NCBI RefSeq assembly: GCF_030823375.1
Contig: NZ_JAUSXB010000001.1
Coordinates: forward strand, 2,356,001 to 2,420,000
DNA: 64,000 bases
Direction of reading: 5' to 3'
Source: Pseudarthrobacter siccitolerans
GTDB taxonomy: Bacteria; Actinomycetota; Actinomycetes; Actinomycetales; Micrococcaceae
Below are positions 41,100-59,952 of the stretch, piece after piece. The first letter of the stretch is position 1, and each line of letters begins with the position of its first letter. The notes under the pieces are model-generated. The model saw only the letters and a list, made by a program, of their open reading frames with translations. It was not told where the DNA came from and searched no databases. The position numbers and the translations under genes are program-made.

Positions 41100-42128
41100 T
41101 TATTGGTCAGCGCCTGGGTGCGCGAGCAGTGAGCTGGCTTCCTGGCGGGTGGTCCCGGAGTCCTGGATGCCTTCTGCGATGTGGGCGAGTTCGGCGGGGA
41201 TGTCCCGGCCTTTCTTGCGCATGGCGGTGGCCCAGAGCCGGCCGGCCCGGTACGAGGAACGTACCAGCGGGCCACTCATGACGCCGAGGAAGCCGAGCTC
41301 GGTGGCCTCGTCCTGCAGGTCCACGAACTCCTGGGGCTTGACCCACCGGTCCACCGGCAGGTGCCGCTCGGACGGGCGAAGGTACTGGGTGATGGTGATC
41401 AGGTCGCACCCCGCCTCGTGCAGGTCGCGGAGCGCTTCGGAGATTTCTTCGCGGGTTTCGCCCATGCCCAGGATCAGGTTGGACTTGGTGACCATGCCCA
41501 GGTTCCGGCCCTGCGTGATCACGTCCAGGGACCGCTCGTACCGGAACGCGGGCCGGATCCGCTTGAAGATCCTTGGCACGGTTTCGACGTTGTGCGCGAA
41601 CACCTCGGGTTTGGAGTCGCAGATCGCGGCGATGTGTTCGGGTTTGCCGGAGAAGTCCGGGATCAGCAGCTCCACCCCGGTGCCCGGGTTCAGCTCGTGG
41701 ATCTTCCGGACGGTTTCGGCGTACAGCCATACGCCCTCGTCCGCCAGGTCGTCGCGGGCCACCCCGGTGACGGTGGCGTAGCGCAGCTGCATGGCCTGCA
41801 CGGACCGGGCCACCTTGGTGGGCTCGAACATGTCCACCGGGGAGGGTTTGCCGGTATCGATCTGGCAGAAGTCACAGCGGCGCGTGCACTCGGACCCGCC
41901 GATCAGGAACGTGGCTTCCTTGTCCTCCCAGCACTCAAAAATGTTGGGGCAGCCGGCCTCCTCACACACCGTGTGCAGGCCCTCTTTCTTCACCAGGTTT
42001 TTGAGCTGGACGAACTCCGGGCCCATCTGGACCTTGGCCTTGATCCACTCCGGCTTCCGCTCCACAGGAACAGCAGAATTGCGCTGTTCAACCCGCAACA
42101 GCTTGCGGCCTTCAGGTGCCAATGTCAT
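41100..42128 (-). CDS. lipA: Lipoyl synthase
   Basis: A 342-residue radical SAM enzyme that inserts two sulfurs into an octanoyl group on lipoyl domains. Both iron-sulfur motifs are seen: the auxiliary cluster in [12 protein letters not shown] and the radical SAM cluster in CTRRCDFC. The ATG at 42128 is chosen because GGGGAG lies 8 nt upstream; an ATG at 42143 overlaps that site. lipB is not beside it. The cluster contains a lipoyl carrier (55587-55814), so this copy probably serves that 2-oxo acid dehydrogenase and may be additional to a housekeeping lipA elsewhere. Confidence 0.93.
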
Positions 42129-42345
42129 ATCAACGCTCCCCATGGCTCTACTTGGTTGGACGGTCGTGAAGTCTTAGTGCCTGTTTCCGCTCTGAATTGC
42201 TTCATACTCATCCCTTGACTGGGTGCTACCCGTCGTTATTTGGACATAGATAAATTTGTGTCTGCGGGAGTACCAGCAAGAACTGAAATTTGGAGATCAC
42301 TGATGTACAGGATCCTCGGATGCGTTTAGACCGGGCCTCGCATTG

Positions 42346-43092: not shown

Positions 43093-43980
43093 CTACATGG
43101 TTAGGTCCCGCGGGACATCCACGATTGAGGAGTCATCCGCGGTATCGAGGCCTTCTTCCGAGGCTCGCTGGAATTCTTGGGCCACGGCGTTGAGGATTCT
43201 GGCATCGAATCCCGCCGCTGCCGCTGCGGTCTTCACCAGTGATGTGTCTTTGACGAAGATGGATAGGTGGGTCTGCGTGGGGCGTTGTTCTGGGGGCAGG
43301 AGCATGCGGGGGCCGCGGTCTGCGAGCATCCAGGATCCGCCAGCACCCCCACCGACGGCCTTGAGCACTTTTTCCTGATCCAATCCGAGCGAGTGAGCAA
43401 ACGCGAGTGCTTCCCCTGCAACGGCGAGATGGGACGCGGACAGCAGCTGGTTGACCATTTTGTAAGCCTGTCCGTTGCCGACTTTGCTTCCGCAGTCCTG
43501 GATGGTCCCTATGGTTTCCAACGTCTCCCGGAGGGAACTCACGTCCGCCGAGTTGCCCGCGACGAAGAGGCCCAAGCGACCTTCAAGCGCGCCGCTGACT
43601 CCCCCTGTTACCGGACAGTCGATGACGCTGATCCCGCGGCCAGCAAGTTTGTCAGCGAAGTCACTCACCGCATCGACGCCTACCGTACTGAGGACCACAA
43701 CAATCTTAATGGCGCTGGCACCGGACAGCAGTCCGGAGTCCAGCAGGTCCCGAAGTTGGTCGCCAGTTGCGACCACGACAAACAGGGCGGTGGCGTCGGT
43801 GAGATCCTCAAGTGCCGTAGACGCTGCGATTCCCAGCTCGGAGGCCTTGGCGACCTGGCTTTCATTCAGGTCCACGGCGCATAACGCCTGGCCGCTGTTG
43901 TGGATACGTTGCGCCATGGGCAGACCCATGGCGCCTATCCCGAGAAAACCGACGAGAGGAGCCGTAGTTACTGTGGTCAT
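43093..43980 (-). CDS. 3-hydroxyisobutyrate dehydrogenase family oxidoreductase
   Basis: A 295-residue beta-hydroxyacid dehydrogenase that oxidises a short hydroxy acid, or reduces a semialdehyde, with NAD(P). The N-terminal Rossmann motif is VGFLGIGAMGLPMAQRI, the substrate-binding segment is DCPVTGGVSGALEGRLGLFV, and the catalytic Lys lies in NGQAYKMVNQLL. The ATG at 43980 places the Rossmann motif as usual; an upstream in-frame ATG exists. The start codon lies inside a perfect inverted repeat. It precedes the GntR and lipA genes on the same strand. The substrate is not shown. Confidence 0.85.
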   Translation of the reverse strand: MTTVTTAPLVGFLGIGAMGLPMAQRIHNSGQALCAVDLNESQVAKASELGIAASTALEDLTDATALFVVVATGDQLRDLLDSGLLSGASAIKIVVVLSTVGVDAVSDFADKLAGRGISVIDCPVTGGVSGALEGRLGLFVAGNSADVSSLRETLETIGTIQDCGSKVGNGQAYKMVNQLLSASHLAVAGEALAFAHSLGLDQEKVLKAVGGGAGGSWMLADRGPRMLLPPEQRPTQTHLSIFVKDTSLVKTAAAAAGFDARILNAVAQEFQRASEEGLDTADDSSIVDVPRDLTM

Positions 43981-44988: not shown

Positions 44989-46326
44989 ATGAGCAACAAA
45001 TCCCCCGTCTCGAATTCTGAGGCAACAAAACCGTCGGCCGAGAAGTCTCCTCCGATCATGAAAAAAGTCGCCTTCGCGAGTTTCGTTGGCACAGCAATCG
45101 AGTATTACGACTTTTTCATCTACGGCACAGCAGCGGCGCTGGTCTTCCCGACGGTGTTTTTCCCTGAAATGACACCGGCGCTGGCCGCAACGGCATCTTT
45201 TGCCACCTTCGCCGTCGCCTTCCTTTCACGGCCCCTCGGAGCTGCAATCTTCGGCCATTTTGGTGATCGCCTGGGCCGCAAGAAGACCCTGGTTGCCACC
45301 CTGCTCATCATGGGCCTGTCAACGGTGGCCGTCGGGATTCTGCCGGGTGCTGCCGCAATCGGCATTGCCGCACCCATCATTTTGTTGATCCTTAGACTGC
45401 TGCAGGGAGTGGCGGTCGGTGGTGAATGGGCCGGCTCGGCCCTGCTCAGCGCAGAATACGCGCCAGCCAATAAGCGTGGTCTCTATGGCATGTTCACCCA
45501 GCTGGGCGTGGGCGCCGGCCTGGTGCTGACCAACCTGGTCTTCCTTGCTGTCAACTTCACCATGGGAGAAAAGAGCGAAGCGTTCCTCACCTGGGGCTGG
45601 AGGATCCCGTTCCTTTTCAGTGCCGTCCTGGTCATCATCGCGCTGTACGTGCGGCTCACCATCGAAGAGACCCCGGTGTTCCGCGCAGAGAAGGCGAAGT
45701 CGGGGGCCGTCAAGGCACCCATCGTCGAGCTGTTCCGTCACCAGGGGGGCAGGGTAGTGCTGGCAGGCGGATGTATCCTCGCAGCCTACATCTACAGCTT
45801 CATGGGCGGAACGTTCCTGCTTGGATATGCCAGCACCTCAGTGCATCACCCGCGGACGCTGATCCTGGTGGGCGGTGTTCTCGGCGGACTCGCCCTGATG
45901 GCTGTCACTGCAGTCTCGGCGATCCTCTGCGACAAGTACGGGCGCCGCGCAATGATGATCCTTGGGTTCAGCCTGGCCCTCCCCTGGTCCTTCGCAGTCA
46001 TACCCCTTCTCGATACCGGATCACCGTTCCTGTTTATCGTCGGAGTCATGGGAACGTCCGCGGTCATGGGTGTTTTCTATGGCCCGCTGGCATCCTTCAT
46101 CCCGGAACTCTTCGCTACCCGGTACCGGTACACCGGGGCCAGCCTGGCGTTCCACGTCAGCGGCATCATCGGTGGCGCCATCCCGCCGCTTCTCATCGGT
46201 GCCCTCCTCGTGTCCTATGGAAGCTGGGCAGTAGGAGCCATGATGGCAGTTCTTGTACTGCTAAGCCTGCTGAGCACCCTTGCCCTCAAAGAAACGCGTG
46301 ACGAGGCCTTGGACGCGGTCTACTAA
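44989..46326 (+). CDS. MFS transporter, metabolite:H+ symporter (MHS) family
   Basis: A 445-residue, 12-helix symporter of the MHS family (KgtP, ShiA, ProP relatives), which imports carboxylates or betaine-like compounds. Diagnostic segments are ASFVGTAIEYYDFFIYGTAA, FGHFGDRLGRKKTL, LLQGVAVGGEWAGSALL and EETPVFRAE. The ATG at 44989 has GAAAGG upstream. It lies behind two TTGGTNNTACCAA-type operators and ends at a strong hairpin. It probably imports the substrate of the 46-58 kb pathway, perhaps an organic acid. Confidence 0.87.
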   Translation: MSNKSPVSNSEATKPSAEKSPPIMKKVAFASFVGTAIEYYDFFIYGTAAALVFPTVFFPEMTPALAATASFATFAVAFLSRPLGAAIFGHFGDRLGRKKTLVATLLIMGLSTVAVGILPGAAAIGIAAPIILLILRLLQGVAVGGEWAGSALLSAEYAPANKRGLYGMFTQLGVGAGLVLTNLVFLAVNFTMGEKSEAFLTWGWRIPFLFSAVLVIIALYVRLTIEETPVFRAEKAKSGAVKAPIVELFRHQGGRVVLAGGCILAAYIYSFMGGTFLLGYASTSVHHPRTLILVGGVLGGLALMAVTAVSAILCDKYGRRAMMILGFSLALPWSFAVIPLLDTGSPFLFIVGVMGTSAVMGVFYGPLASFIPELFATRYRYTGASLAFHVSGIIGGAIPPLLIGALLVSYGSWAVGAMMAVLVLLSLLSTLALKETRDEALDAVY

Positions 46327-46513: not shown

Positions 46514-47641
46514 ATGAGTCTGGCCCAAAAAAGCGCGGCTGATGTCATGTCCTCCGGCGGTGTCCGGCCTGCCGTCGTCGATTGCGACGTTCATCCTATT
46601 CTGGAGTCTTCCGGTCAGCTGCTGCCCTATCTGGATGAGTACTGGCATGACCAGCTGGTTGCCGCGAGGACGCCGACGTATGAGCCGAACTATCACCCGC
46701 GAAACTCTGCAATCGCTCAGCGTCCCGGAACCAAGACAGCGGAAAATGGGCGAGCAGCCACTACGGTTGAAAACCTTGTTGCCGATGTCTTTAAGGACGG
46801 GTTCACGGATTTCGCGATTTTGAACTGCCTGTATGCCACTCAGCAGATTCATCAGCCGCGGCGGGAGCAGGCCCATGTCCGTGCGCTGAACACGTGGATC
46901 GCCAATGAGTGGCTGGCTAAGGACTCCAGGCTGAGGGCATCCATCGTTGTGCCCCTGGGAACACCGGAAGCCGCTGCGGCGGAAATCGATTTCTGGGCCA
47001 GCGACGACCGGTTCGTGCAGGTACTGCTGGTGGGCCAGTCCGAGTTGCTCTACGGCCGCCAGATCAATTGGCCGATCTGGGAAGCTGCAGAACGGGCCGG
47101 GCTTCCGGTTGCCATTCACATCGGAGGCGTATTCCGTCAGGCTCCTACATCTGTTGGATGGCCCGCGACGCACCTGGAATGGTATGTCGGCCAGACGTCC
47201 AATCTTGAAGCGCAGATCAGCTCGATCGTCTGTGAAGGCGTGCTTCAGAAGTTCCCGGGCACCAAGGTTGTTATCAGCGAGGTTGGTTTCAACTGGCTGC
47301 CGGCCTATATGTGGAAATTTGACAAGCTCTGGAAGAGCTACCGGCCCGACACTCCGTGGCTTGACCGGGCACCCTCGGATTTGATCCGTGAGCACTTCAG
47401 GTTCACAACCAGCCCGTCAGACGGTGCCGAGATTCCCGGGCAACTCGACAAGACCGTTGATCGTATGGGCTCAGATCGCTTGCTGGTTTACTCCAGCGAC
47501 TATCCGCACAACCATGCCTCCGGGCCACGGGACATCGAAGCGGGAACCAACGACCAAGCACTTCTGGATCGGATCTACCGCCAGAACGCCGCCGAACTCT
47601 ACAACCTGGTCGTTGCCGAAAACCGGATTGAGGGGAAATAG
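46514..47641 (+). CDS. Amidohydrolase-fold protein A
   Basis: A 375-residue protein of the amidohydrolase_2 (ACMSD/LigW-like) family. The N-terminal metal motif, normally HxH, reads V-V-D23-C-D25-V-H27-P. Later expected ligand regions are PVAIHIGG and SSDYPHNH. Family members decarboxylate or hydrolyse aromatic acids, but the company of a Rieske ferredoxin and a reductase suggests redox chemistry. The ATG at 46514 is preferred over 46490 because GGAAGGAAAAG lies upstream. It is followed by its paralogue after 5 nt; both have D25-x-H27, so they may form a heteromer. Confidence 0.82.
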   Translation: MSLAQKSAADVMSSGGVRPAVVDCDVHPILESSGQLLPYLDEYWHDQLVAARTPTYEPNYHPRNSAIAQRPGTKTAENGRAATTVENLVADVFKDGFTDFAILNCLYATQQIHQPRREQAHVRALNTWIANEWLAKDSRLRASIVVPLGTPEAAAAEIDFWASDDRFVQVLLVGQSELLYGRQINWPIWEAAERAGLPVAIHIGGVFRQAPTSVGWPATHLEWYVGQTSNLEAQISSIVCEGVLQKFPGTKVVISEVGFNWLPAYMWKFDKLWKSYRPDTPWLDRAPSDLIREHFRFTTSPSDGAEIPGQLDKTVDRMGSDRLLVYSSDYPHNHASGPRDIEAGTNDQALLDRIYRQNAAELYNLVVAENRIEGK

Positions 47642-47646
47642 GAGCC

Positions 47647-48783
47647 ATGACTACAACCAAAAGCGAAAAGGCGACTGCTTTGTCCAAGCCAGTCGTAACA
47701 ACGGGGCTTATCGACGTCGATATCCACCCTCTTCCCAAAGTCGGGGGACTCAACGAGTACTTGCCAACCGGCATCCTGAAGCAGCTTGATGAGTACGGCA
47801 TGAGGTCAACCACGGGACTCCAGCTCATCAGCGAATACCCGCAGATGTATGGCAACGCGATGCGCGCCGATGCCTGGCCCGAAGACGGCTACCCGGGCAG
47901 CGACCTGGACCTCATGCGGACGCAGCTTCTTGACCTGTACAACATTGAGCTCGGGGTGCTGCAGTGCCTCTCCCCCGGGGGTCAGACGCTGAATCCCGCT
48001 GGGCAGGCTCTGAACCCTGAAATCGGATCAGCCCTGTGCAGCGCACTCAACGACTACCAGATTGAACACCTGGTTCACCCTGAACCCCGCCTGCGTGTGT
48101 CAATGGCGGCAACCTTCGAAGCGCCCGACCTGGCTGTTAAGGAGATCGACCGCGTTGGCTCCGACCCGGCGGTCATTTCCATTCTTGGGCTGAGCAAGAC
48201 CATGGAACCGATGGGCAGCAGGAAGTACTGGCCCATCTACGAGGCGGCGGTGGCGCACAACCTGCCCATCCAGGTACACCTGTCCCAAGGAGGCGGCCAC
48301 GCCAACACGGGTACCGGCTGGACTTCGTATCACGCCGAGTACCATGTCGGTCACGTACAAAGCATCCAGTCCCAAATGCTGAGCCTCATTCTTCAGGGGG
48401 TCTTCGACCGGTTCCCCGGCCTCAAAATCATGTTCGTTGAAGGCAACGTCGCACACTTCGTCCCGTTGATTCAGCGGCTTGACTACCACTGGAAGACGCT
48501 GCGCAGTGAGGTCCCGAACCTGCAGCGCAAACCGTCTGAGTACATTCACGATCACATTTGGGCTTCCACACAGCCGATTGATGAGCCGCAGAACCCCCGG
48601 CATCTTCAGGAAATCATTGAAGAGTTCTGCCCTGACAACGTGCTCTTCGCCTCTGACTATCCGCACTTTGATTTTGACTCGCCTGAAACCGTGTTCCCGG
48701 CAAGCTTTTCGCCGGAGCTCAAGGAGAAGATCTTCAGGACCAACGGCATGCGATTCTTCGGGCTGGAGAATGGGGCAAAGTGA
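47647..48783 (+). CDS. Amidohydrolase-fold protein B
   Basis: A 378-residue paralogue of the preceding protein. Its metal motif is L-I-D23-V-D25-I-H27-P. It is richer in His around the putative site: VHLSQGGGHANTG, SYHAEYHVGHVQ, RLDYHWKTL and ASDYPHFDFDSPE. Such a set of His, Asp and Glu could bind one or two iron ions. From memory, PtmU3 of platensimycin synthesis is an amidohydrolase-fold non-heme di-iron hydroxylase, so this fold can do oxygenase chemistry. GGAG precedes the ATG. Its stop overlaps the start of the Rieske gene by 4 nt. Confidence 0.82.
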   Translation: MTTTKSEKATALSKPVVTTGLIDVDIHPLPKVGGLNEYLPTGILKQLDEYGMRSTTGLQLISEYPQMYGNAMRADAWPEDGYPGSDLDLMRTQLLDLYNIELGVLQCLSPGGQTLNPAGQALNPEIGSALCSALNDYQIEHLVHPEPRLRVSMAATFEAPDLAVKEIDRVGSDPAVISILGLSKTMEPMGSRKYWPIYEAAVAHNLPIQVHLSQGGGHANTGTGWTSYHAEYHVGHVQSIQSQMLSLILQGVFDRFPGLKIMFVEGNVAHFVPLIQRLDYHWKTLRSEVPNLQRKPSEYIHDHIWASTQPIDEPQNPRHLQEIIEEFCPDNVLFASDYPHFDFDSPETVFPASFSPELKEKIFRTNGMRFFGLENGAK

Positions 48784-49263
48784 GTAAGTACGTTGTTGCC
48801 CGGGCTGGCGAGATTGAGCCAGGGGGCCGGAAAATCATCGAACTCGAAGGACGCTCAGTGGGCGTGCTGAATGTCGATGGCGAGTACTTTGCCCTCCTGA
48901 ACCACTGCCCACACGCCGGGGCCGAACTGTGCAGATTTGGCACCATCTTTGGAGTGTCTTCCGCTGAAAAGCCTGACTCGCCCATCACCTACCAACGCGG
49001 GCCGTTCCATTCGCTGTCCGTGGCACCAGTGGGAGTTCGATATCCGCACCGGTGAGTCCTTCTACGACCCGAAAAACGCCAGAGTACGCAAGTACGACGT
49101 CGAGGTGTTCCCCGGGTCCCCGGAGGCATTGACAGACCCTGAGGGGGGCCTGCAAAAAGGGCCCTACGTCATGGAGGGATACGAGGTCAGTATCGAGGGC
49201 GAAGTCATCGTTGTGGACACGAGCCGTCGACGCAAAGAACGTCGTCCCAACATCGAGCCGTGA
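48780..49263 (+). pseudogene. Rieske 2Fe-2S ferredoxin gene with a single-base frameshift
   Basis: A Rieske-type ferredoxin of about 160 residues, starting at a GTG (48780) that overlaps the previous stop. The first iron-binding motif, NHCPHAGAELC, lies in frame 1. The second, CPWHQWEFD, lies in another frame after about 49008. Removing one of two Cs at 49007-49008 joins them as QRGPFIRCPWHQW and restores a complete protein. So the gene carries one extra base, which is either a real mutation or a sequence error. It would pass electrons from the reductase encoded next to an oxygenase. Confidence 0.85.
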
Positions 49264-49391
49264 TCTGCCGCTGACATCCGCCCCCTCCGGGGAGTCGCAC
49301 TTCCGGGGCAGCTCAGAGGTCCAAAAGGGCATCTGAGCTGCCCCACAGCAATCCACCGGTACATCCGTACCCAACTCTTACAGGTGAGACC

Positions 49392-50366
49392 ATGACCCAC
49401 GCAAAAAAGTCCTTCCCTGAGCATTCAACCGTAAATGCTCAGATCGTAGATATTGTCAATGAAGCCGAGGGTGTCGTGTCCTTGCACCTGGCGCCCGTAG
49501 AAGGCTCATTCCCTGGCTGGGAACCTGGTGCCCACATCGAGTTGAATCTTGCTCCTGACCTGATCCGCCAGTATTCGCTCTGCGGAGATCCTCAGGTACG
49601 CGACCGTTGGCGGGTTGGAGTTCTGCGCGAACCCCAAAGCCGCGGTGGATCCCAGTTCGTTCACGACAAGCTATCGGTCGGGGACGTCATCGAATGTGGC
49701 AGCCCTCTGAACAACTTCGAACTGGTCGATGCAAAAGAATACCTGTTTATTGCGGGCGGAATCGGGGTGACCCCTATTTTGCCGATGATCGCCGAGTGTG
49801 AGGCACGAGGTGCTTCCTGGCGGATGGTCTACGGCGGGCGCAACGAAAATTCCATGGCCTTCAGGGCCGAAGTGGCAAAATACGGCGACAAAGTGACCAT
49901 GTGGCCTCAGGACCGATTCGGGATCATTGATCTAAAATCGCTACTCACAGAACCAAACGACGGCCTTGCCGTCTATTGCTGCGGCCCGGGCGTGCTGCTC
50001 GATGCGGTGGAGGGGTTCTGCGCGCAGTGGCCCGAAAACACCGCAACGCTGCACCTGGAGCGGTTCCGCCCCAAGGCCGGCGCCCTCGATGGGCAAAACA
50101 CCGCGTTCGAGGTAGTGATTGATTCCTCGGGTGACGTACTAACGGTTGAGGCCGACCGGTCCATTGCAGAAACACTCGAGGCCGCCGGTATCCACGTGCC
50201 AACTTCATGTCGGGAAGGCACCTGCGGTACCTGCGAAACGGGCCTCCTCGAGGGGATCCCGGATCATCGGGACTCTTACTTGACACCAGAGGAGAAATCC
50301 TCGAACGAGATCATCATGCTTTGCTGCTCGAGGTCCTGCAGCAAACGCCTGGTCCTCGATCTGTGA
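49392..50366 (+). CDS. PDR/VanB family ferredoxin reductase
   Basis: A 324-residue reductase of the phthalate dioxygenase reductase type. It takes electrons from NAD(P)H through FMN to a plant-type 2Fe-2S centre. The FMN domain has IRQYSLCGDP, the nucleotide domain has FIAGGIGVTPILPM and YCCGPG, and the C-terminal ferredoxin domain has CREGTCGTC with a fourth Cys in MLCCSRS. The length is normal. The gap of 128 nt after the Rieske gene has no terminator. No classical oxygenase alpha subunit or P450 is encoded nearby, so its final acceptor is probably the amidohydrolase-fold pair. Confidence 0.9.
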   Translation: MTHAKKSFPEHSTVNAQIVDIVNEAEGVVSLHLAPVEGSFPGWEPGAHIELNLAPDLIRQYSLCGDPQVRDRWRVGVLREPQSRGGSQFVHDKLSVGDVIECGSPLNNFELVDAKEYLFIAGGIGVTPILPMIAECEARGASWRMVYGGRNENSMAFRAEVAKYGDKVTMWPQDRFGIIDLKSLLTEPNDGLAVYCCGPGVLLDAVEGFCAQWPENTATLHLERFRPKAGALDGQNTAFEVVIDSSGDVLTVEADRSIAETLEAAGIHVPTSCREGTCGTCETGLLEGIPDHRDSYLTPEEKSSNEIIMLCCSRSCSKRLVLDL

Positions 50367-50453
50367 TTTTACTTCTCCCGACCAGACGCGCCATAGAGGG
50401 TTGAAAACGTTGGTCGTGGCTGCAGGTCCCCGCCAGGACAAACTCAACCGTCC

Positions 50454-51419
50454 ATGCTAGTTGAAGTATTCCTTAAGGTCCTCCCACTCTTCCTTGGGAT
50501 CCTCGTTGGATACCTTGCAAGTTACTGGCCGCGATTTCAGGAGAACGCCGAGCCCGCAATCAGTGCCTTCGTGTTCTACATCGCACTACCGGCCCTACTT
50601 TTCGTCGTCGCGGCTAAAGCCGATCTGGGTGAAGGCATCCCGCCGGCCTTTCCCGCCTTGATCGTGGCTGTCACCGTTGGAGTCTCCTTAGTGAGCTTTG
50701 TTCCACTGTGGATCATCTCGAAAAGAGACCTGCCCAACAGCATTGCCGCTACGCTTTCAGCGACCTATGGCAACGTCTCCTACCTTGGGATACCAGTGGT
50801 GTTGGGCATTCTGGGCACAGCGGGCGGCCTGCCAGCAGTGATTGGCCAGCTCGTCCACAACCTCATATTCCTGCTCGGCTACCCCGTTCTTCATGAGCTG
50901 CTGTTCAGCCAGCGGGCGGACAGAGCCGGCCGATGGAAAGCGATCACCCACACGGTCTACAAAGCGATGGTGTGCAGCCCCTTAATCTGGGCCATCGTGC
51001 TCGGCATCGCCGTAAGCACGACGAAAATCTCTGTGTTCGCTCCGCTGATGGAATTCACAAGCATGCTGGCAGGAGCAGCCGCACCAGGGGCGCTATTCGC
51101 GATCGGCCTGAGCCTACGGGGCGCGGTCCGGGTTTTTCGCGGAGGCAAACTTCGTCTTACCCCTGTATGGGCGGCCGGAGTCGCCAAGCTGATCCTTATG
51201 CCAGCGGCAACAGCAGCCGCCGCTCTCATTTTCGCTCCGGACATACCTCACCCCTGGCTAATCACCCTCATCATCATGGCCGGAATGCCAACCTCAGCCA
51301 CCGCCTATGTATTGTCCCAAACCAGCGGCGGGGACGGCCGAACAGTTGCGGCAATCATCCTCGTCACCAACTTTTTCGGGATCGTCACCCTTCCCATCGC
51401 CGCACAGTTGTTCACCTAA
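50454..51419 (+). CDS. AEC family transporter
   Basis: A 321-residue AEC-type membrane carrier, distinct from the one at 2377-3303. About ten helices are visible, with the conserved broken helix in ATYGNVSYLGIPVVLGILG and the late MPTSATAYVLSQ segment. It follows the reductase by 87 nt and is probably the last gene of the amidohydrolase/Rieske operon. It could import the substrate or export an acidic product. The ATG at 50454 has only a weak ribosome site. Confidence 0.82.
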   Translation: MLVEVFLKVLPLFLGILVGYLASYWPRFQENAEPAISAFVFYIALPALLFVVAAKADLGEGIPPAFPALIVAVTVGVSLVSFVPLWIISKRDLPNSIAATLSATYGNVSYLGIPVVLGILGTAGGLPAVIGQLVHNLIFLLGYPVLHELLFSQRADRAGRWKAITHTVYKAMVCSPLIWAIVLGIAVSTTKISVFAPLMEFTSMLAGAAAPGALFAIGLSLRGAVRVFRGGKLRLTPVWAAGVAKLILMPAATAAAALIFAPDIPHPWLITLIIMAGMPTSATAYVLSQTSGGDGRTVAAIILVTNFFGIVTLPIAAQLFT

Positions 51420-51676
51420 AGGGCAGTCATCGATCCGGAGAACCAACTGGACTGCCCTGCCCGCCCCCGGCTGTCTTCAAGCGGCACATTTGTCCTTCAA
51501 TGTAAAAGGTTGCCGCGGCCGGGTGCACGCTCTGTCTACCCGGATACTCCAGACTCTGAACAGAAGCTGCGGGGCTTTGCCTGCGGGAGAAAGCACGCTT
51601 GGAACGATGGTCACCCGTCAGTCGTACGGAGGCTTATCGGTTGCACCGGAACGCCGACCGTACACACCCGGGGACG

Positions 51677-52050
51677 TGTTAACGCTAACCGAAAATAGGG
51701 CCAGTGTGCCGATCGAAAACGGGCCACAGGTTGCTGTTCTATTGTGCCTGAAGCTGCGTTCTGGTCTTGTCCCTGAGCCGGTAGCTGTTTCCGGTCAGGT
51801 TCAGGACTTCTGCATGGTGAACGATCCGGTCGATCATTGCTGAGGCCACTGTCGCGTCGCTGAAGACCTCGCCCCACCTGCTGAAGGCGAGGTTGCCGGT
51901 CAGCACCGGGAGGCGTGTTCCTAGCGGGATGAAACCAACCGGAAAAGGGGATGTAGCTGACGTCGTCAACGATGAGCAGCTTGTAACGGCGGAGCTTGGC
52001 CAGTTCCTGGGGCAGGCGTCCGGGGTCGTGGACTTCGGCCAACCTCAATA
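51677..52050 (-). mobile_element. IS21-family remnant: istB 3' part and element end
   Basis: The minus strand encodes pieces of the IstB ATPase helper: ELAKLRRYKLLIVDDVSYIP (Walker B region), then, after a deletion and frame change, FSRWGEVFSDATVASAMIDR and HHAEVLNLTGNSYRLRD. The TGTTAACGCTAACC at 51677-51690 looks like an IS21-type end. The N-terminal half of istB is missing. Confidence 0.7.
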
Positions 52051-53581: not shown

Positions 53582-54592
53582 TCACACAGTCAGTTTGCTG
53601 TGGTGTCCCACTGTTGCCAGAGCCTCGGCAACGATGTTCTCCGTGGAGGGGACCACGGCGCTCTCCAGCTCTTCGGAATAGGGAATGGGTGCTCGTGCGG
53701 CGCCCATCCGGCGGGGGGCTGCGGCAAGTTCTCCCCAGCATTCCTGCACCGTGTTACTGATGAACTCCCCGCCCCAGCCGAAGTCCCGGACTGCTTCGTG
53801 AACAACCAGAAGGTGTCGGGTTTTCCGAACGGAAGTAAAGACAGTCTCCATGTCGAAGGGATAGAGAGTCCGCGGATCGATGATTTCCACGTCCACTCCT
53901 TGAGAGCTGAGAATGTCTGCGGCTTCGAGTGCGCGCTTGGTCATTAGTTGCGTTGCAACTATGGTGAGGTCTTTGCCTTCACGGGCCACCCGGGCCTTGC
54001 CCAGCGGAATGAGTTCCTTCGTCACTGGGCCCTTGTCGTAGTAAAGGGCTTTGTGTTCGAGGAAAATTGTGGGGTTGTTGCTCTTGATAGCGCTGCGCAA
54101 GAGACCGTAAGCGTCGTTTGCGGTACCGGGAACGACGACCTCCAAGCCCGGAATGTGGGCATAGAGGGTTTCCAGCGACTGTGAATGCTGGGCCGCTTTG
54201 CCGATGCCGGATCCACCGTTGCTGCGCACCACCAGCGGGGTGGAGAACTGTCCCCCGAACATGTAGCGGGCTTTGGCGGCCTGGTTAATCAGTCCGTCTG
54301 CTCCCAGAAGCATAAAGTCGGAGTACATGATCTCAACGACAGTCCGTGTGCCCGCCATAGCGGCCCCGGCTCCGGCAGAGATCAAAGCTTCTTCACTGAT
54401 TGGCGTGTCCCGGACACGCTCTTTACCAAACACTTCAGCCATTTTGCGTGTCACACCGTAGATGCCGCCGCCGGTACCCCAGGTGGTGAGGTCCTCGCCC
54501 ATGATGATCGTTGAAGGGTCCTCAGTGAATTCATCATGCAGGGCTGCGTTCAGTGCCCGCCAAATTGTCAGTTGCTGAGCTGGTTTGTTCAT
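53582..54592 (-). CDS. 2-oxo acid dehydrogenase E1 component, beta subunit
   Basis: A 336-residue transketolase-fold beta subunit of a thiamine-dependent 2-oxo acid dehydrogenase. Typical segments are FGKERVRDTPISEEALISAG, VEIMYSDFMLLGADGLINQA, GGSGIGKAAQHSQSLE and the C-terminal DIEIIDPRTLYPFD-like stretch. It resembles the acetoin, pyruvate or branched-chain enzymes (AcoB/PdhB/BkdB). Its ATG overlaps the E1 alpha stop by 4 nt, so both are co-translated. The substrate cannot be told from sequence. Confidence 0.9.
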   Translation of the reverse strand: MNKPAQQLTIWRALNAALHDEFTEDPSTIIMGEDLTTWGTGGGIYGVTRKMAEVFGKERVRDTPISEEALISAGAGAAMAGTRTVVEIMYSDFMLLGADGLINQAAKARYMFGGQFSTPLVVRSNGGSGIGKAAQHSQSLETLYAHIPGLEVVVPGTANDAYGLLRSAIKSNNPTIFLEHKALYYDKGPVTKELIPLGKARVAREGKDLTIVATQLMTKRALEAADILSSQGVDVEIIDPRTLYPFDMETVFTSVRKTRHLLVVHEAVRDFGWGGEFISNTVQECWGELAAAPRRMGAARAPIPYSEELESAVVPSTENIVAEALATVGHHSKLTV

Positions 54593-55584
54593 CGGTTGAC
54601 CTCGCTGACTTGAGTGAAGGCTGAAGAAACGTCCGGGTAGGGAGAGGCCTTGGCAAATTCCTCAGCGGCGTCTACTGCTGTCAGAGCGGCGGCTGCAATC
54701 GTCTGCAGTTGCGTCTCGTCCAACACGTTCGAGTCGAGGAGTTTTTTCGCGATCCGTGCAATTGGGTCACGGCCCTTCCATTGCTCCACCTGTTCCGCAG
54801 TCCTGTAAATTTCGGTGTCTCCGGCCATATGACCCAGGTACCGATAGGTGTCCGCAACGATGAAGGACGGTCCCTGCCCGGACCGGGCCCTATGGACCGC
54901 TGCGGCGGCGGCATTGCTGACGGCTTCTACGTCCATTCCATCAACATCAACAGATGGCACTCCATAAGCTTCTCCGCGCCGGCGCAGATCGGGCTGGGCC
55001 ACCATCTCCTCCAACGTTGCGGACTGAGCGAAGTGGTTGTTTTCGCAGACAAAAATCACGGGGAGATTCCAGATCGCTGCAAGATTAAAGGCTTCGGCCA
55101 GCACACCCTGATTGGTGGCCCCATCGCCGAAATAGGCCACCGCCACATCGTCTGTGCCCTGCGCTTGGGCCGCCAGTGCCGCGCCGGTGGCGAGCCCGAT
55201 GCCGGCGCCAACGATGCCGTTGGTGCCCAAAATTCCCAGCTCTTTCACTCCGATGTGCATAGAGCCTCCCTTGCCACCGCAATATCCATCGCGACGTCCC
55301 AGGATTTCAGCCAGTGTCCGTCCGGCATCTGCTCCCTTAGCCAGGCAATGGGCGTGCCCACGATGATTGCTTGCGACGCTGTCGGAGGCCCGCAGTGCCC
55401 AAGACACGCCCACTGCTACGGCTTCCATGCCTACCGAAGGGTGGGTCGAGCCGCGAATAAGGCCTTCCTCTGAATACCCCGGAAGGCGGGACTCAAACTC
55501 GCGGATTGTACTCATCAACTCCAAAGCCGACGGTCCATCTATGTCAAGAGCAAACCTGGTGGTCTCCGAAGTGTCGACAGTCAT
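54589..55584 (-). CDS. 2-oxo acid dehydrogenase E1 component, alpha subunit
   Basis: A 331-residue alpha subunit with the thiamine diphosphate motif GDGATNQGVLAEAFNLAA ending in ENN. Other family marks are SNHRGHAHCLAKGADAGRTL, GRRDGYCGGKGGSMHI and TYRYLGHMAGDTEIYR. Size and motifs are nearest to the acetoin dehydrogenase/PdhA group. Its ATG lies 2 nt after the lipoyl-carrier stop and its end overlaps E1 beta, so the order carrier-alpha-beta-acyltransferase is one operon. No E3 gene is in the window; the housekeeping E3 may be used. Confidence 0.9.
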   Translation of the reverse strand: MTVDTSETTRFALDIDGPSALELMSTIREFESRLPGYSEEGLIRGSTHPSVGMEAVAVGVSWALRASDSVASNHRGHAHCLAKGADAGRTLAEILGRRDGYCGGKGGSMHIGVKELGILGTNGIVGAGIGLATGAALAAQAQGTDDVAVAYFGDGATNQGVLAEAFNLAAIWNLPVIFVCENNHFAQSATLEEMVAQPDLRRRGEAYGVPSVDVDGMDVEAVSNAAAAAVHRARSGQGPSFIVADTYRYLGHMAGDTEIYRTAEQVEQWKGRDPIARIAKKLLDSNVLDETQLQTIAAAALTAVDAAEEFAKASPYPDVSSAFTQVSEVNR

Positions 55585-56147: not shown

Positions 56148-56882
56148 CTAGTCGGAGAGGGAGATGACCTTGGCTAGCTGGGCTGCACCATTTTCAAGAT
56201 GCTGCCGGAGCCTGCTCTCGGCGAGGTCGGGGTCACCGTCGAAGATCGCGGCAGCAATCATTTCGTGTTCGTCCCAGGCAATGGCAGCCACGCTCGGCAT
56301 GTTTAACATCCTGAACATGGCCCGCTCCACGACTGACCACACGGGGATGACAACTTTCCGGAACTGGGAATTTCCAGTAGCGGTCAGAATCGACATGTGG
56401 AACTCCCGGTCGACCTCCAGCAGTTGCTCGGCGTCGTAGCCGGATACCTTGCCCCGATGTTTTTCCAGGACGCGGCGGATCTGCTCCACCCCCTCCATCG
56501 GGCGATGAGTGGCCACGTGCCGGACGGCCTGGGACTCAAGAGCCTGCCGGATTTCGTAGACGTCTTGCAGATCCTTCAGGTACAGGGGACGGACAGCCAC
56601 ACCGCCCCCTGGCAGCTTTTCGAGCAGCCCTTCAGTTACAAGTTCGCTGATGGCTGCCCGAACAGGCATGCGGCTGACGCCAAGCTGGTTGGCGACCTGC
56701 TCTTGGCTGAGCCGGACCCCGGTGGGTAATTCGTCGCGTGCGACTGCCAGTCGCAATCTGTCCCGAACCGTCCGGGCCAGAGTTGTGGAGTCCCGGGCAG
56801 GAATTTCGGCCATCGCTGGACCGCCGGCCCGAGGCAGGCTCATTCCAAAGCCTGGCGTAGCTTCTGGGTTACGCAAGGACAT
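56148..56882 (-). CDS. GntR family regulator, FCD type
   Basis: A 244-residue FadR-type regulator. The winged helix (VRDRLRLAVARDELPTGVRL, QEQVANQLGVSRMPVRAAIS) is followed by an FCD domain with the metal-site-like DREFHMSILTATGN and the C-terminal RLRQHLENG. The ATG at 56882 has GAGGAGG upstream. Its promoter has a GGATCC-based operator like the one before amidohydrolase A, so it probably controls itself and the 46.5-51.4 kb operon. It lies between the 2-oxo acid dehydrogenase operon and the SDR gene. Confidence 0.87.
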   Translation of the reverse strand: MSLRNPEATPGFGMSLPRAGGPAMAEIPARDSTTLARTVRDRLRLAVARDELPTGVRLSQEQVANQLGVSRMPVRAAISELVTEGLLEKLPGGGVAVRPLYLKDLQDVYEIRQALESQAVRHVATHRPMEGVEQIRRVLEKHRGKVSGYDAEQLLEVDREFHMSILTATGNSQFRKVVIPVWSVVERAMFRMLNMPSVAAIAWDEHEMIAAAIFDGDPDLAESRLRQHLENGAAQLAKVISLSD

Positions 56883-56975: not shown

Positions 56976-57791
56976 TTACTGTCCCACGGAGGCCGTCAGA
57001 CCACCGTCTACGGGCAGGCAAACACCGTTGACGTATTTCGACTCATCCGAAGCCAGGAAGAGCGCGGCCTGGGCAACGTCAAAGGATGTACCCATTTTTC
57101 CCGTGGGGCTGAGGGCGTGGCGGGCTTCGAGCATCGCTTCAATGGACGGGTAGTTACCGGCGATTTGCTTGTACATCATCGGTGTTTCGATGAAGCCGGG
57201 CGCTACAGCGTTGGCGCGGATGCCCTTATCGGCGTATTCAAGAGCCAGGTTGACCGTAAACTGAATCAGGCCGCCCTTGGTCGCTGAGTAACTTGGGTAG
57301 TTGTACCCCAGGTAGCGCATGCCGCCCACTGAGGCGATGTTGACGATGCTGCCGTAGCCCTGTTCGAGGAAGATCGGCAGGACATGCTTGGTGGTGATGA
57401 AGGCGCTGGTGAGGTTGACCCTCATGACAAGGTCCCACTCGTCCAGGCCCATCTCGATGGGCCCGCCCATCCTCGCGATGCCGACGTTGTTATGGAGCAC
57501 GCTTGGTTTCCCCACTTGGGAAACACAGTCGCGGACAGACGCCTCCACTGCCGCGTTGTCGGATACGTCCGCTACCGCACCACCGATTGAAATCGAGAGA
57601 TTCCTCGCATCCTTCAGCTCAGCCAGTTTTTCGACGGAACCCTTCACTGCATCCGGCGAAACATCTACGACAAAAACGTTGCCGCCCTCTTCGGCGTATG
57701 TCAGCGCCGCAGCCAAACCATTGTTGATCTCACCCCCCACCGATCCCCCGCCGAATACGATGACTGTTTTCCCTGCCATACGTGCTGTCAT
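56976..57791 (-). CDS. Short-chain dehydrogenase/reductase
   Basis: A 271-residue NAD(P)-dependent SDR. The cofactor motif is slightly unusual, VIVFGGGSVGGEINNGLAAA, in place of TGxxxGIG. The catalytic Ser, Tyr and Lys are seen in VNIASVGG and YPSYSATKGG, and the end reads YVNGVCLPVDGG. The ATG at 57791 is chosen because AAAGGAGA lies just upstream; the longer frame to 57953 reads as non-coding. It shares its upstream region with a divergent GntR gene and two operators (57967 and 58051), so it belongs to that regulon. The substrate, likely a hydroxy intermediate, is unknown. Confidence 0.88.
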   Translation of the reverse strand: MTARMAGKTVIVFGGGSVGGEINNGLAAALTYAEEGGNVFVVDVSPDAVKGSVEKLAELKDARNLSISIGGAVADVSDNAAVEASVRDCVSQVGKPSVLHNNVGIARMGGPIEMGLDEWDLVMRVNLTSAFITTKHVLPIFLEQGYGSIVNIASVGGMRYLGYNYPSYSATKGGLIQFTVNLALEYADKGIRANAVAPGFIETPMMYKQIAGNYPSIEAMLEARHALSPTGKMGTSFDVAQAALFLASDESKYVNGVCLPVDGGLTASVGQ

Positions 57792-57966
57792 AACGTCTCC
57801 TTTGTCGATTCTGATTTTTGCAACCGGATCCCCGCATGCGAGTGGCAATCTGGCTTCCGTATGAACCCTGACCATGCGCTGGCACGCCGGAACTGGGCGG
57901 TGCGGCGTTTTGGTCAGTTCTTCACCCGGGCAGGCCATGGAAAATGCTTGCACCCCAGCCGCAATT

Positions 57967-57979: not shown

Positions 57980-58050
57980 GCCTGTGGTGTCAAGGCAGGT
58001 CTATTAAAATCCACGTACCATGTACAGAAATAGGCCGCGAAAAGACAGCC

Positions 58051-58063
58051 TTGGTACTGCCAA
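58051..58063. promoter_or_regulatory. GntR-type operator, site E
   Basis: TTGGTACTGCCAA, one mismatch in the right arm, 26 nt before the GntR ATG at 58089; suited to autoregulation. Confidence 0.6.
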
Positions 58064-58088
58064 AATAGGTAGGAGGGTGAGGAGCGCA

Positions 58089-58787
58089 ATGGAAGACAAC
58101 CTTCTGGTCAAATTGCTGAACTTGGTGGAGGACGCGGGACCTGATCAGCGCATACCTTCCGAGCGCGAACTTACCGTCCAGTGGGGTACCTCGCGGACGG
58201 CATTACGTCACCGGCTCAGGATGCTGGAAGCCATGGGGGCCCTCGAAAGGAGAGGGGCCGCAGGGACGTATACACGCACCGTGAAGCCGCATGATGTTGC
58301 AGCTGCGCTCAAGATAGGTCTGCATTCCTCGGCCCTCTCATCAGCTTCCGCTTTTCAACCGGTGCGAGTCGCGCTTGAACGACAGGCGGCCAAGATGGCA
58401 GCAGAGGACTTCAAACCCATTCCTGTCGCTCATGCAGAAGACGCCGTCATGAGAATGGAAAAGTCCACCACACCCGACGCCCTCTACGCAGCTGATCTCG
58501 ATTTTCACCATGCAATTTTCGAGGCCTCCGGCGACCCTGCATTGATCTTCTTCTCCACGGCGGTCGGTGACTTGATCGCGGACTCGGTGAGCTCCCGCCG
58601 GTCGAGAATGCTTCGGCTCGCGAATGATGTAGATGAAATGAGGGTGCTCCACCGCGCCATCCTTGAAGCGGTCAAAGCCAAGGATCCGGCCAGCGCCATG
58701 GCTGCTATGGATAGCCATTTCGACAGAATCGATTCCTTGGAAATTCATGACCCTACTTACCGACCTGTAGTGGACGAGGTGGTCTAA
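58089..58787 (+). CDS. GntR family regulator, FCD type, likely regulator of the TTGGTNNTACCAA sites
   Basis: A 232-residue FadR/PdhR-type regulator. The winged helix includes RIPSERELTVQWGTSRTALR and RLRMLEAMGALERRGA, and the FCD domain has DLDFHHAIFEASGDPALIFF. The ATG at 58089 is chosen because GTGAGGAG lies upstream; the frame opens earlier at 58020 but across operator site E. PdhR-type proteins bind TTGGTNNNACCAA, and five such elements lie in this cluster, two of them in front of this gene. It therefore probably controls the transporter, the 2-oxo acid dehydrogenase, the SDR and itself. Confidence 0.87.
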   Translation: MEDNLLVKLLNLVEDAGPDQRIPSERELTVQWGTSRTALRHRLRMLEAMGALERRGAAGTYTRTVKPHDVAAALKIGLHSSALSSASAFQPVRVALERQAAKMAAEDFKPIPVAHAEDAVMRMEKSTTPDALYAADLDFHHAIFEASGDPALIFFSTAVGDLIADSVSSRRSRMLRLANDVDEMRVLHRAILEAVKAKDPASAMAAMDSHFDRIDSLEIHDPTYRPVVDEVV

Positions 58788-59412
58788 AGATTTGTGATAA
58801 TCGCTCGCCTGGGATGCGGGCGGACCGCACAAAAATGCCCCGCTACGTTTAGTCGGCCCTGCACGCGAGGTAATCAGATGATCACCGAGGGATGCCAACA
58901 TCCTGTGAGAAACAAGGCGGCAGCGGCTCGAAAAATCACAACAGCGGCGGTGCAACTGGGGAATGAAACTCTCCATCGGGCGGGTTCGCATGCCGAAGCC
59001 CGCACCCGGTACTTCCCCAGCTGAGCCGAGAGCATTGCGTTTGCCCGCAGCAGCCTTTCCTTATCTCATTGGGATAGGTGAGCGATAGCTTTTCTTCCCT
59101 CGTCCGGCTAGGGGCGGTGGAACTTGTCCAGCCAGTGTTCTCCGTCATTCTTCGCGTGGTTCCCGATCTCCGAAAAACTCCTCCGAACAAATCGGTTCGC
59201 GTAGCCCGGACCCCAGATTGACAAAAGAACTTTTCCTGGTCCGCCTCCGCGATCTCTACATGCTCTGGGGTTTTCTCGTTTAATGCCGAGGTACCCCCAA
59301 CCTGACAAGGGAATGTCAGGGTCTTAACTTCCTTGTAGGACGGTTCTGGAACTCAACCTCACAGGCGAAGGTTGGAGGCAACTCTGGCCGGACAGCGAAT
59401 CGGGTATATGCG
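58788..59412. other. Interval without a recognisable gene
   Basis: Open frames on both strands are short and lack ribosome sites. It lies at the right edge of the catabolic island and may be decayed sequence. Confidence 0.5.
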
Positions 59413-59952
59413 GTGAGCACGCTGGACCAGAACGAGAAACGCCAACTCGAAGGCCAGGTCCTCCACCGGGTGATCACGGACAAGGCCTCCGGCAGTGCCG
59501 CCGACGCCGGCGTGTCAGCATCCCTGGTAAAGAAGCTGTTCCTTTCCAAGGAAAAACTCTTTGCCGCCGTGCAACCTGAAGAGTCACTGCTTGCCGAAGT
59601 GAACGTCCCGACGTTGGAACTGGGCATAGCCCTCGTCTTTCGCGTGCTGATGCGCCAGGAACGCGGAATGCAGGAGCCCTGGGCAACCATCCCGCTGGCC
59701 GTGCTGAACTCCCCCAACCCCGAGGCCGCGCGGACAGAAATCCGCGAACGCTACCTCGATGCCATCGCCCAGCTCATCGGTGACACCACCCCGGACCGCC
59801 GATTCGCCTCCACCGTGACCGCCTTGATGACCGGGTTCGGCGGGACCATGCGTACCCTGGGCCTCTTCGACGGCTGGGACCTTGACGAACTCGTGGAGCA
59901 GTACGGAGCAATCGTCCAAACCCAGATCAACGCATCCAAGGCCGCCGCATAG
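59413..59952 (+). CDS. TetR-like regulator with a degenerate DNA-binding domain
   Basis: A 179-residue product whose C-terminal part (residues ~60-175) is a TetR-type ligand domain (LELGIALVFRVLMRQER, RFASTVTALMTGFGGTMRTL). The N-terminal part should be a helix-turn-helix of about 50 residues, but only KASGSAADAGVSASLVKKLF and SKEKLFAAV remain; the first helix is missing or replaced by MSTLDQNEKRQLEGQVLHRV. Start GTG at 59413 without a clear ribosome site. It is either a truncated regulator or a variant that does not bind DNA in the usual way. Confidence 0.55.
   Translation: MSTLDQNEKRQLEGQVLHRVITDKASGSAADAGVSASLVKKLFLSKEKLFAAVQPEESLLAEVNVPTLELGIALVFRVLMRQERGMQEPWATIPLAVLNSPNPEAARTEIRERYLDAIAQLIGDTTPDRRFASTVTALMTGFGGTMRTLGLFDGWDLDELVEQYGAIVQTQINASKAAA

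Follow-up and report, generated by a model that had tools for sequence, protein, structure and literature searches.

The 64,000-nucleotide stretch of Pseudarthrobacter siccitolerans DNA considered here (contig NZ_JAUSXB010000001.1, positions 2,356,001 to 2,420,000; hereafter, the window) very probably encodes a three-component monooxygenase of the AibH1H2GF type, built around two amidohydrolase-fold proteins, A and B. We put the probability of this assignment at about 0.92, a figure that refers to the type of enzyme and not to its substrate. The type is already known, from AibH1H2GF and from the family termed AROs, and the window holds a further member, one gene of which is split in the assembly. 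The first-pass annotation had proposed a candidate new oxygenase system, but solved structures (PDB 6M1W, 6M2I and 8FUL-8FUO for AibH1H2) and three research papers already exist. Since the orthologue has been solved and published, a new oxygenase class was rejected. The four genes are:

46514..47641, + strand: H1 (protein A), AibH1 orthologue, probable structural subunit with a mononuclear site; 631 bits to 6m2i_A, 75.5% identity to AibH1 over the compared part only
47647..48783, + strand: H2 (protein B), AibH2 orthologue, probable catalytic subunit with a dinuclear Mn/Fe site; 645 bits to 6m1w_B, 71.9% identity to AibH2 over the compared part only
48780..49263, + strand: G, AibG-type Rieske ferredoxin gene, in which the frame changes near 49000-49020, leaving pieces at 48780-49055 and up to 49263
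49392..50366, + strand: F, AibF-type PDR-family flavin/plant-type 2Fe-2S reductase, with Fer2 and NAD_binding_1 domains

Both A and B were assigned to PF04909 in a Pfam scan, and the translations of both contain D25-x-H27 (counting A from the start at 46514), which bears out the earlier description of two amidohydrolase-fold genes with a D-x-H motif. In a PDB search, the best solved matches were AibH1 for A (E ~1e-189) and AibH2 for B (E ~1e-193). SfbO-type proteins matched B with 151-223 bits. PtmU3, which had been put forward as the nearest precedent, turned out to be far more distant, with 66 bits for A and 40 bits for B against 631 and 645 bits for AibH1 and AibH2. Judged by sequence, A and B are thus orthologous to AibH1 and AibH2 of Rhodococcus wratislaviensis. 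Orthology, metal ligands, gene order and the excess of synonymous changes described below were read from the sequences themselves; oligomer, cofactor and reaction are carried over from the solved orthologue.

The metal ligands agree with this assignment. All ligands of the dinuclear site (D25, H27, H211, E265, D337 and H340), together with the second-shell D342, are present in H2 in 16 of 16 aligned rows, and those of the mononuclear site (D24, H26, H201, E255 and D328) are equally invariant in H1 (16/16). The extra acid at position 342 is conserved in binuclear members only (PMC7782822); in A the equivalent position is His, as in AibH1, and the acid is absent. The H1 segment WKFDKLW[KR]SYR and H2 residues F341/D342 are likewise conserved in all 16 rows. 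Residues of the H1H2 heterotetramer interface named in portions of PMC12141560 would fall near these elements if the residue numbers map as we infer.

What is known of the orthologue also bears on the roles of the two subunits. AibH1 is a mononuclear and probably structural subunit (PMC7782822). The activity of AibH1H2 requires Mn; a study of 2023 proposed a Mn/Fe site in H2 and disfavored H1 as the catalytic site (PMC10401708). By analogy, A is probably a non-catalytic partner of B, and in H2 a Mn/Fe cofactor would be likelier than iron only. The earlier proposal that A and B form a heteromeric iron oxygenase therefore stands as to type, these being orthologues of AibH1H2GF components, but not as to equal catalytic roles, as AibH1 is mononuclear and A lacks the acid, nor as to iron as the metal.

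The arrangement of the genes points in the same direction. The window has the flavin/2Fe-2S reductase gene adjacent and the order H1-H2-G-F, which is also the published order of the aib genes (PMC7782822). We compared the window with 14 relatives, comprising 11 named genome loci, one plasmid and two genomes of the same genus (G179 and G186), whose B proteins are 63-98% identical to that of the window. The 11 loci are those with at least 64% identity among the best 80 of 135 related loci; flanks extend mostly ~10 kb to a side, with 40 kb in all for G179 and G186. H1, H2 and G occur together in all 14, and F lies next to G in 11 (56-86% identity). Among the 14, no F was found beside G in L004, L005 and L010, which must draw on a reductase encoded elsewhere. 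Downstream of G in these three loci, nitrile hydratase genes lie further along. The F of the window is 86% identical to that of G186 and 73% to that of G179, whereas for H2 the pattern is reversed (82% and 98%), which raises the possibility of recombination within the operon.

It is highly improbable that A and B are hydrolases or decarboxylases of the PF04909 fold (ACMSD or gamma-resorcylate decarboxylase type) with redox genes adjacent by chance: the shared Pfam family and weak PDB matches to such decarboxylases would fit, but PF04909 zinc hydrolases and decarboxylases have H-x-H on the first strand, where both proteins have D-x-H; the dinuclear ligand set is complete; scores of 631-645 bits to a proven monooxygenase contrast with at most 57 bits to PF04909 decarboxylases; and a Rieske gene adjoins H2 in 14/14 relatives and a reductase gene in 11/14. 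A classical oxygenase hidden in the operon was rejected as well, since the 10 proteins scanned (39.4-51.4 kb) include no Rieske oxygenase alpha subunit, P450 or classical di-iron oxygenase, in agreement with the first-pass annotation. Nor do the relatives' clusters always include a classical oxygenase, judging from their recognized neighbors, which were identified partly by eye and mostly within ~10 kb on each side.

AibH1H2GF of R. wratislaviensis C31-06, reported in 2021, hydroxylates 2-aminoisobutyrate (Aib), and all four proteins are needed for activity (PMC7782822); the reaction with O2 has been shown for this system (PMC7782822, PMC10401708). By analogy, reductase F would draw electrons from NADH, to be handed on by the Rieske ferredoxin G to the H1/H2 heteromer. 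Within the heteromer H1 would be structural, with one metal, and H2 catalytic, with a dinuclear and probably Mn/Fe site. H2 would activate O2 and hydroxylate a strong C-H bond next to the quaternary carbon of a small imported acid. The suggestion that ferredoxin and reductase feed A and B, and so start the catabolism of an imported compound, thus matches what has been shown for the system to which A and B are orthologous.

The strongest alternative, to which we give somewhat less than even odds, is that the window holds a decaying and non-functional copy. It starts from the state of G, a point against a working monooxygenase. Pfam Rieske positions 2-55 are encoded in the frame of 48780, in a 91-codon open reading frame ending at 49055. 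The next frame encodes positions 56-87, in an open reading frame ending at 49263. The product of the 91-codon frame contains the C-x-H motif but not C-x2-H. A single frame with both motifs is absent from the window assembly and present in 14/14 relatives, so the split is either a recent mutation or an assembly error. Of the complete electron chain proposed earlier, the PDR-family reductase stands and the intact Rieske ferredoxin does not. Decay would also fit the absence of the nitrile hydratase block found in the nearest relative, G179 (the search that detects nitrile hydratase there found none in the genome of the window), and the similarity to istB and resolvase genes at ~51.7-52.1 and 59.3-59.5 kb. 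Against it, codon changes relative to G179 are predominantly synonymous throughout: 102 synonymous to 9 non-synonymous in H2, 101 to 21 in H1, 15 to 3 in the first piece of G and 18 to 4 in the second, read in its own frame. This excess implies that any loss is very recent, with selection acting on both pieces of G until then, or that the split is an assembly error. Moreover, G186 also has no nitrile hydratase, yet its Rieske frame is whole. The genome has seven further Rieske-domain sites (nine matches, two of them the G pieces), so another ferredoxin might substitute for G. Unless it does, or the split is a sequencing error, the copy in the window may not work.

Close relatives of H2 are scarce. 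Of 5.8 billion proteins searched, 59 match B at E <= 1e-100. Among 205 other genomes of the genus only G179 and G186 have a close H2. In a phylum sample of 396 genomes there were two, one being the window's own genome and the other having 46% identity. In one metagenomic homolog of 534 amino acids (P0179) an H2 domain is fused to a Rieske domain, but the joint looks like a frame artefact of its contig and the protein was not used. In the H2 tree, L013 (Streptomyces sp. SID8352) is the only one of the 14 relatives that groups with AibH2, with full support. The window, G179 and G186 form another clade, as do L004, L005, L008, L010 and L091, and also L009, L011, L012 and L014; L006 and L007 form a pair apart. 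In the L009/L011/L012/L014 clade, H2 position 236, aligned with a sulfate-binding Arg of SfbO, is Gln rather than His, and SDR, thiolase and CoA-ligase genes are neighbors; its substrate is perhaps a different one.

The genes that surround the monooxygenase bear on its substrate:

43093..43980, - strand: beta-hydroxyacid dehydrogenase of L-threonate/tartronate-semialdehyde type by NCBIfam and PDB matches, start inferred
44989..46326, + strand: MFS metabolite:H+ symporter of TIGR00883/shikimate-transporter type, probable substrate importer; 408 bits to TIGR00883, whose cut-off is 443
50454..51419, + strand: AEC (auxin efflux carrier) family transporter, PF03547
52702..53502, - strand: E2 acyltransferase, 266 aa; it matches E2 profiles only over their C-terminal catalytic part and so appears to be without a lipoyl domain
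53582..54592, - strand: AcoB-like E1 beta, 96% identical in G179 and 95% in G186
54589..55584, - strand: AcoA-like E1 alpha dependent on thiamine pyrophosphate; best NCBIfam match pyruvate dehydrogenase E1 alpha, below cut-off; 95% in G179
56148..56882, - strand: GntR-family regulator, with relatives near AibH genes in L006, L008, L010, L091, G179 and G186
56976..57953, - strand: SDR dehydrogenase, with matches that include meso-2,3-butanediol dehydrogenase (below cut-off); 93% in G179, 85% in G186
58020..58787, + strand: GntR/LldR-type regulator at the right edge of the conserved module; 90% in G179, 78% in G186

Relatives of the symporter occur near AibH genes in G179, G186, L004, L005, L010 and L091 (44-94%); its close neighbors on two plasmids gave no clue to the substrate. 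The AEC transporter is found at the same place in G179 (87%) and G186 (67%). The dehydrogenase at 43093-43980 has only NCBIfam matches below cut-off (ThreonDh, 169 bits; 2-hydroxy-3-oxopropionate reductase, 125; HIBADH, 108), and its best solved match is a 2-hydroxy-3-oxopropionate reductase (97 bits). All three genomes of the window's clade contain the threonate-type dehydrogenase, the AcoABC-like cassette and the SDR gene. The lipA gene at 41100-42143 has a counterpart in G179 with 98.5% identity. Remnants resembling IS21 istB and Tn3-family resolvase genes (51611-52048 and ~59290-59500) sit in the gap that separates the AEC gene from the AcoABC-like genes and to the right of the outermost GntR gene, the flank that holds the nitrile hydratase block in G179. 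Across 19000-60000 the G+C content is below that of the left 18 kb, as is, for the most part, the G+C at third positions; in 4-kb steps the G+C values are 0.585-0.636 for 20-60 kb versus 0.644-0.679 for 0-20 kb, a pattern suggestive of an island acquired horizontally.

Judging from the neighboring genes, the substrate is probably a 2-methyl-branched acid other than Aib. In G179 the genes flanking the module encode both subunits of nitrile hydratase (alpha and beta, each exceeding its NCBIfam cut-off), together with an amidase, a NicO-family metal transporter and a periplasmic-binding-like protein. Nitrile hydratase is encoded near AibH genes in four of the 14 relatives (G179, L004, L005 and L010). 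In a separate sample of the phylum, 23 of 198 genomes have a nitrile hydratase alpha above cut-off. Under assumptions about copy numbers, genome sizes and spans, the probability of such linkage by chance would be 8e-11 to 2e-6 for 4/14 (3/13 if L004 and L005 count once). In addition, genes of LutA/LutB type (lactate oxidation) are present in L004, L005, L008 and L091, the L008 set being recognized by Pfam. On a plasmid of Rhodococcus pseudokoreensis R79, ~25 kb encompass genes for GntR, ilvC, LysR, mmsB, aldehyde dehydrogenase, an enoyl-CoA-hydratase-like protein, CoA transferase, LUD/LutB, thiolase, acyl-CoA synthetase, F, G, H2, H1 and an MFS transporter, with a few others. This set resembles the Aib pathway with lactate replacing alanine.

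We therefore prefer to view the imported acid as a nitrile-derived 2-methyl acid, perhaps a 2-hydroxy-2-methyl acid. More tentatively, and with the odds against it, we propose that a branch of the AibH family hydroxylates cyanohydrin-derived 2-hydroxy-2-methyl acids, the oxygen analogs of Aib, and that the window's clade salvages breakdown products of cyanogenic plants. Acetone cyanohydrin, derived from linamarin, would yield 2-hydroxyisobutyrate, which would be hydroxylated to 2-methylglycerate; dehydrogenation and decarboxylation would then give lactaldehyde or lactate and pyruvate. The cyanohydrin of lotaustralin would yield 2-hydroxy-2-methylbutyrate and, from it, acetolactate, acetoin and, via the AcoABC-like system, acetyl-CoA. 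The latter route would explain both the AcoABC-like genes and the ilvC genes of relatives. According to portions of PMC5872296, white clover contains linamarin and lotaustralin. Rhodococcoides trifolii is among the relatives, a name that is only a hint. The 2-hydroxyisobutyrate cluster of Mycolicibacterium sp. ELW1 combines ilvC with an MFS transporter of the MHS family, but its route runs through a B12 mutase (portions of PMC13188929), and another 2-hydroxyisobutyrate route proceeds through an acyl-CoA lyase (portions of PMC7176365); the route proposed here differs from both in being oxygenase-based. The main texts of PMC7782822, PMC10401708 and PMC10811679 contain no mention of "nitrile", and "hydroxyisobut" appears there only within a dehydrogenase name, in PMC7782822. 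Among the papers listed in keyword searches of the literature (20 of 673 in one case), none was recognized, judging by titles and abstract openings, as describing the proposed route.

A number of observations weigh against this view of the substrate. Nitrile hydratase is missing from G186 and from the window's genome alike. G179 and G186 contain no LUD genes, and those in the genome of the window are at a great distance from its AibH genes, so the lactate branch would not hold for this clade. The label "AcoA-like" is weakly founded, as the best NCBIfam and PDB matches of E1 alpha are pyruvate dehydrogenase E1; the 120 homologs listed include three named acetoin oxidoreductase, four pyruvate/acetoin dehydrogenase and four pyruvate dehydrogenase. 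In two protein searches, an E1 alpha of this type and an H2 relative turned up on contigs of equal length, presumably the same ones (4,386,623, 27,554, 11,990 and 105,356 bases). The distance between AcoA and H2 is ~22 kb in Arthrobacter sp. VKM Ac-2550, with what by eye resembles a TRAP transporter between them; the AcoABC/SDR/GntR cassette is thus only semi-linked, which weakens the acetoin step. In the genomes of eight other relatives no E1 alpha of this type was found at E <= 1e-90. The H2 tree gives no firm branching order for the clades and does not securely join the window's clade to the other nitrile-hydratase-linked loci. Furthermore, L006, L007 and L008 carry AibD1-, AibE- and LysR-like genes that share 60-79% identity with their L013 counterparts, without the permease. 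Finally, near-site residues Q66, H233 and H236, which we aligned with residues of SfbO that bind sulfate, do not differ from those of AibH2.

The identity of these three residues keeps Aib among the possible substrates, and a plain Aib monooxygenase, with downstream genes elsewhere in the genome, has further points in its favor: identities of 72-76% to AibH1 and AibH2, an upstream dehydrogenase of the same superfamily as AibD1, and three genes elsewhere in the window's genome that resemble serine hydroxymethyltransferase (SHMT). We nevertheless consider this unlikely. With L013 genes as queries, the window gave no match to the amino-acid permease and a best aldehyde dehydrogenase match of 38%. 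Only one of the 14 relatives, L013, has the permease, and L013 alone groups with AibH2 in the tree. The SHMT search covered 11 genomes or records, namely the window's genome and the ten relatives other than L009, L011, L012 and L014. Among these ten relatives, only L013 has an AibC-like gene beside the AibH genes; it is open over 452 codons, and a weak match in G606 was placed in L013 from matching coordinates. In G179 one SHMT-like gene is situated ~11 kb from H2, next to a cluster that by eye resembles a sarcosine-type one. In the window, where AibT, AibE and AibC but not AibA were searched for, none was found near the monooxygenase, and the three SHMT-like genes are far away. The upstream dehydrogenase scores best as an L-threonate dehydrogenase, not as HIBADH. 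Residue 182 is T in AibH2 and L013 and L in the other 14 rows, although this difference between the Aib clade and the rest is confounded by ancestry.

Taken alone, the window is of modest interest, as a known system with one split gene; the part that merits specialist attention is the evidence from neighboring genes for a nitrile-linked substrate other than Aib. Substrates have been assigned to few members of this oxygenase family. Among 555 AibH2-like proteins, few co-occurring neighbors allow function to be inferred, except for Rieske proteins and permeases (PMC10401708). The links to nitrile hydratase, amidase and lactate oxidation reduce the candidate substrates of the branch nearest to AibH1H2 to a few that can be tested; a second example would reveal the residues that determine substrate choice.

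Among known systems, AibH1H2GF is the closest, sharing with the window orthologous H1 and H2, identical ligands, the order H1-H2-G-F and a transporter gene adjoining F. The window differs in its transporter families, the subtype of its dehydrogenase, the added AcoABC-like cassette, the split Rieske frame and the lack, noted above, of AibE, AibC and AibT relatives beside the module. AROs such as SfbO (PDB 8SM6-8SM9), a family defined in 2024 by the same genome-neighbor logic as that of the first-pass annotation (PMC10811679), have in common with the window the PF04909 fold, the dinuclear ligand set and a small Rieske protein alongside, but are more distant from its H2 (151-223 bits). PtmU3 (PDB 6OMP), the diiron hydroxylase of platensimycin synthesis, has the same fold, and its iron ligands are reported to be conserved with AibH2 (PMC7782822). 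However, apart from its low scores with A and B, PtmU3 accepts CoA-linked substrates (PMC7782822) and has no auxiliary H1-like partner (PMC10401708).

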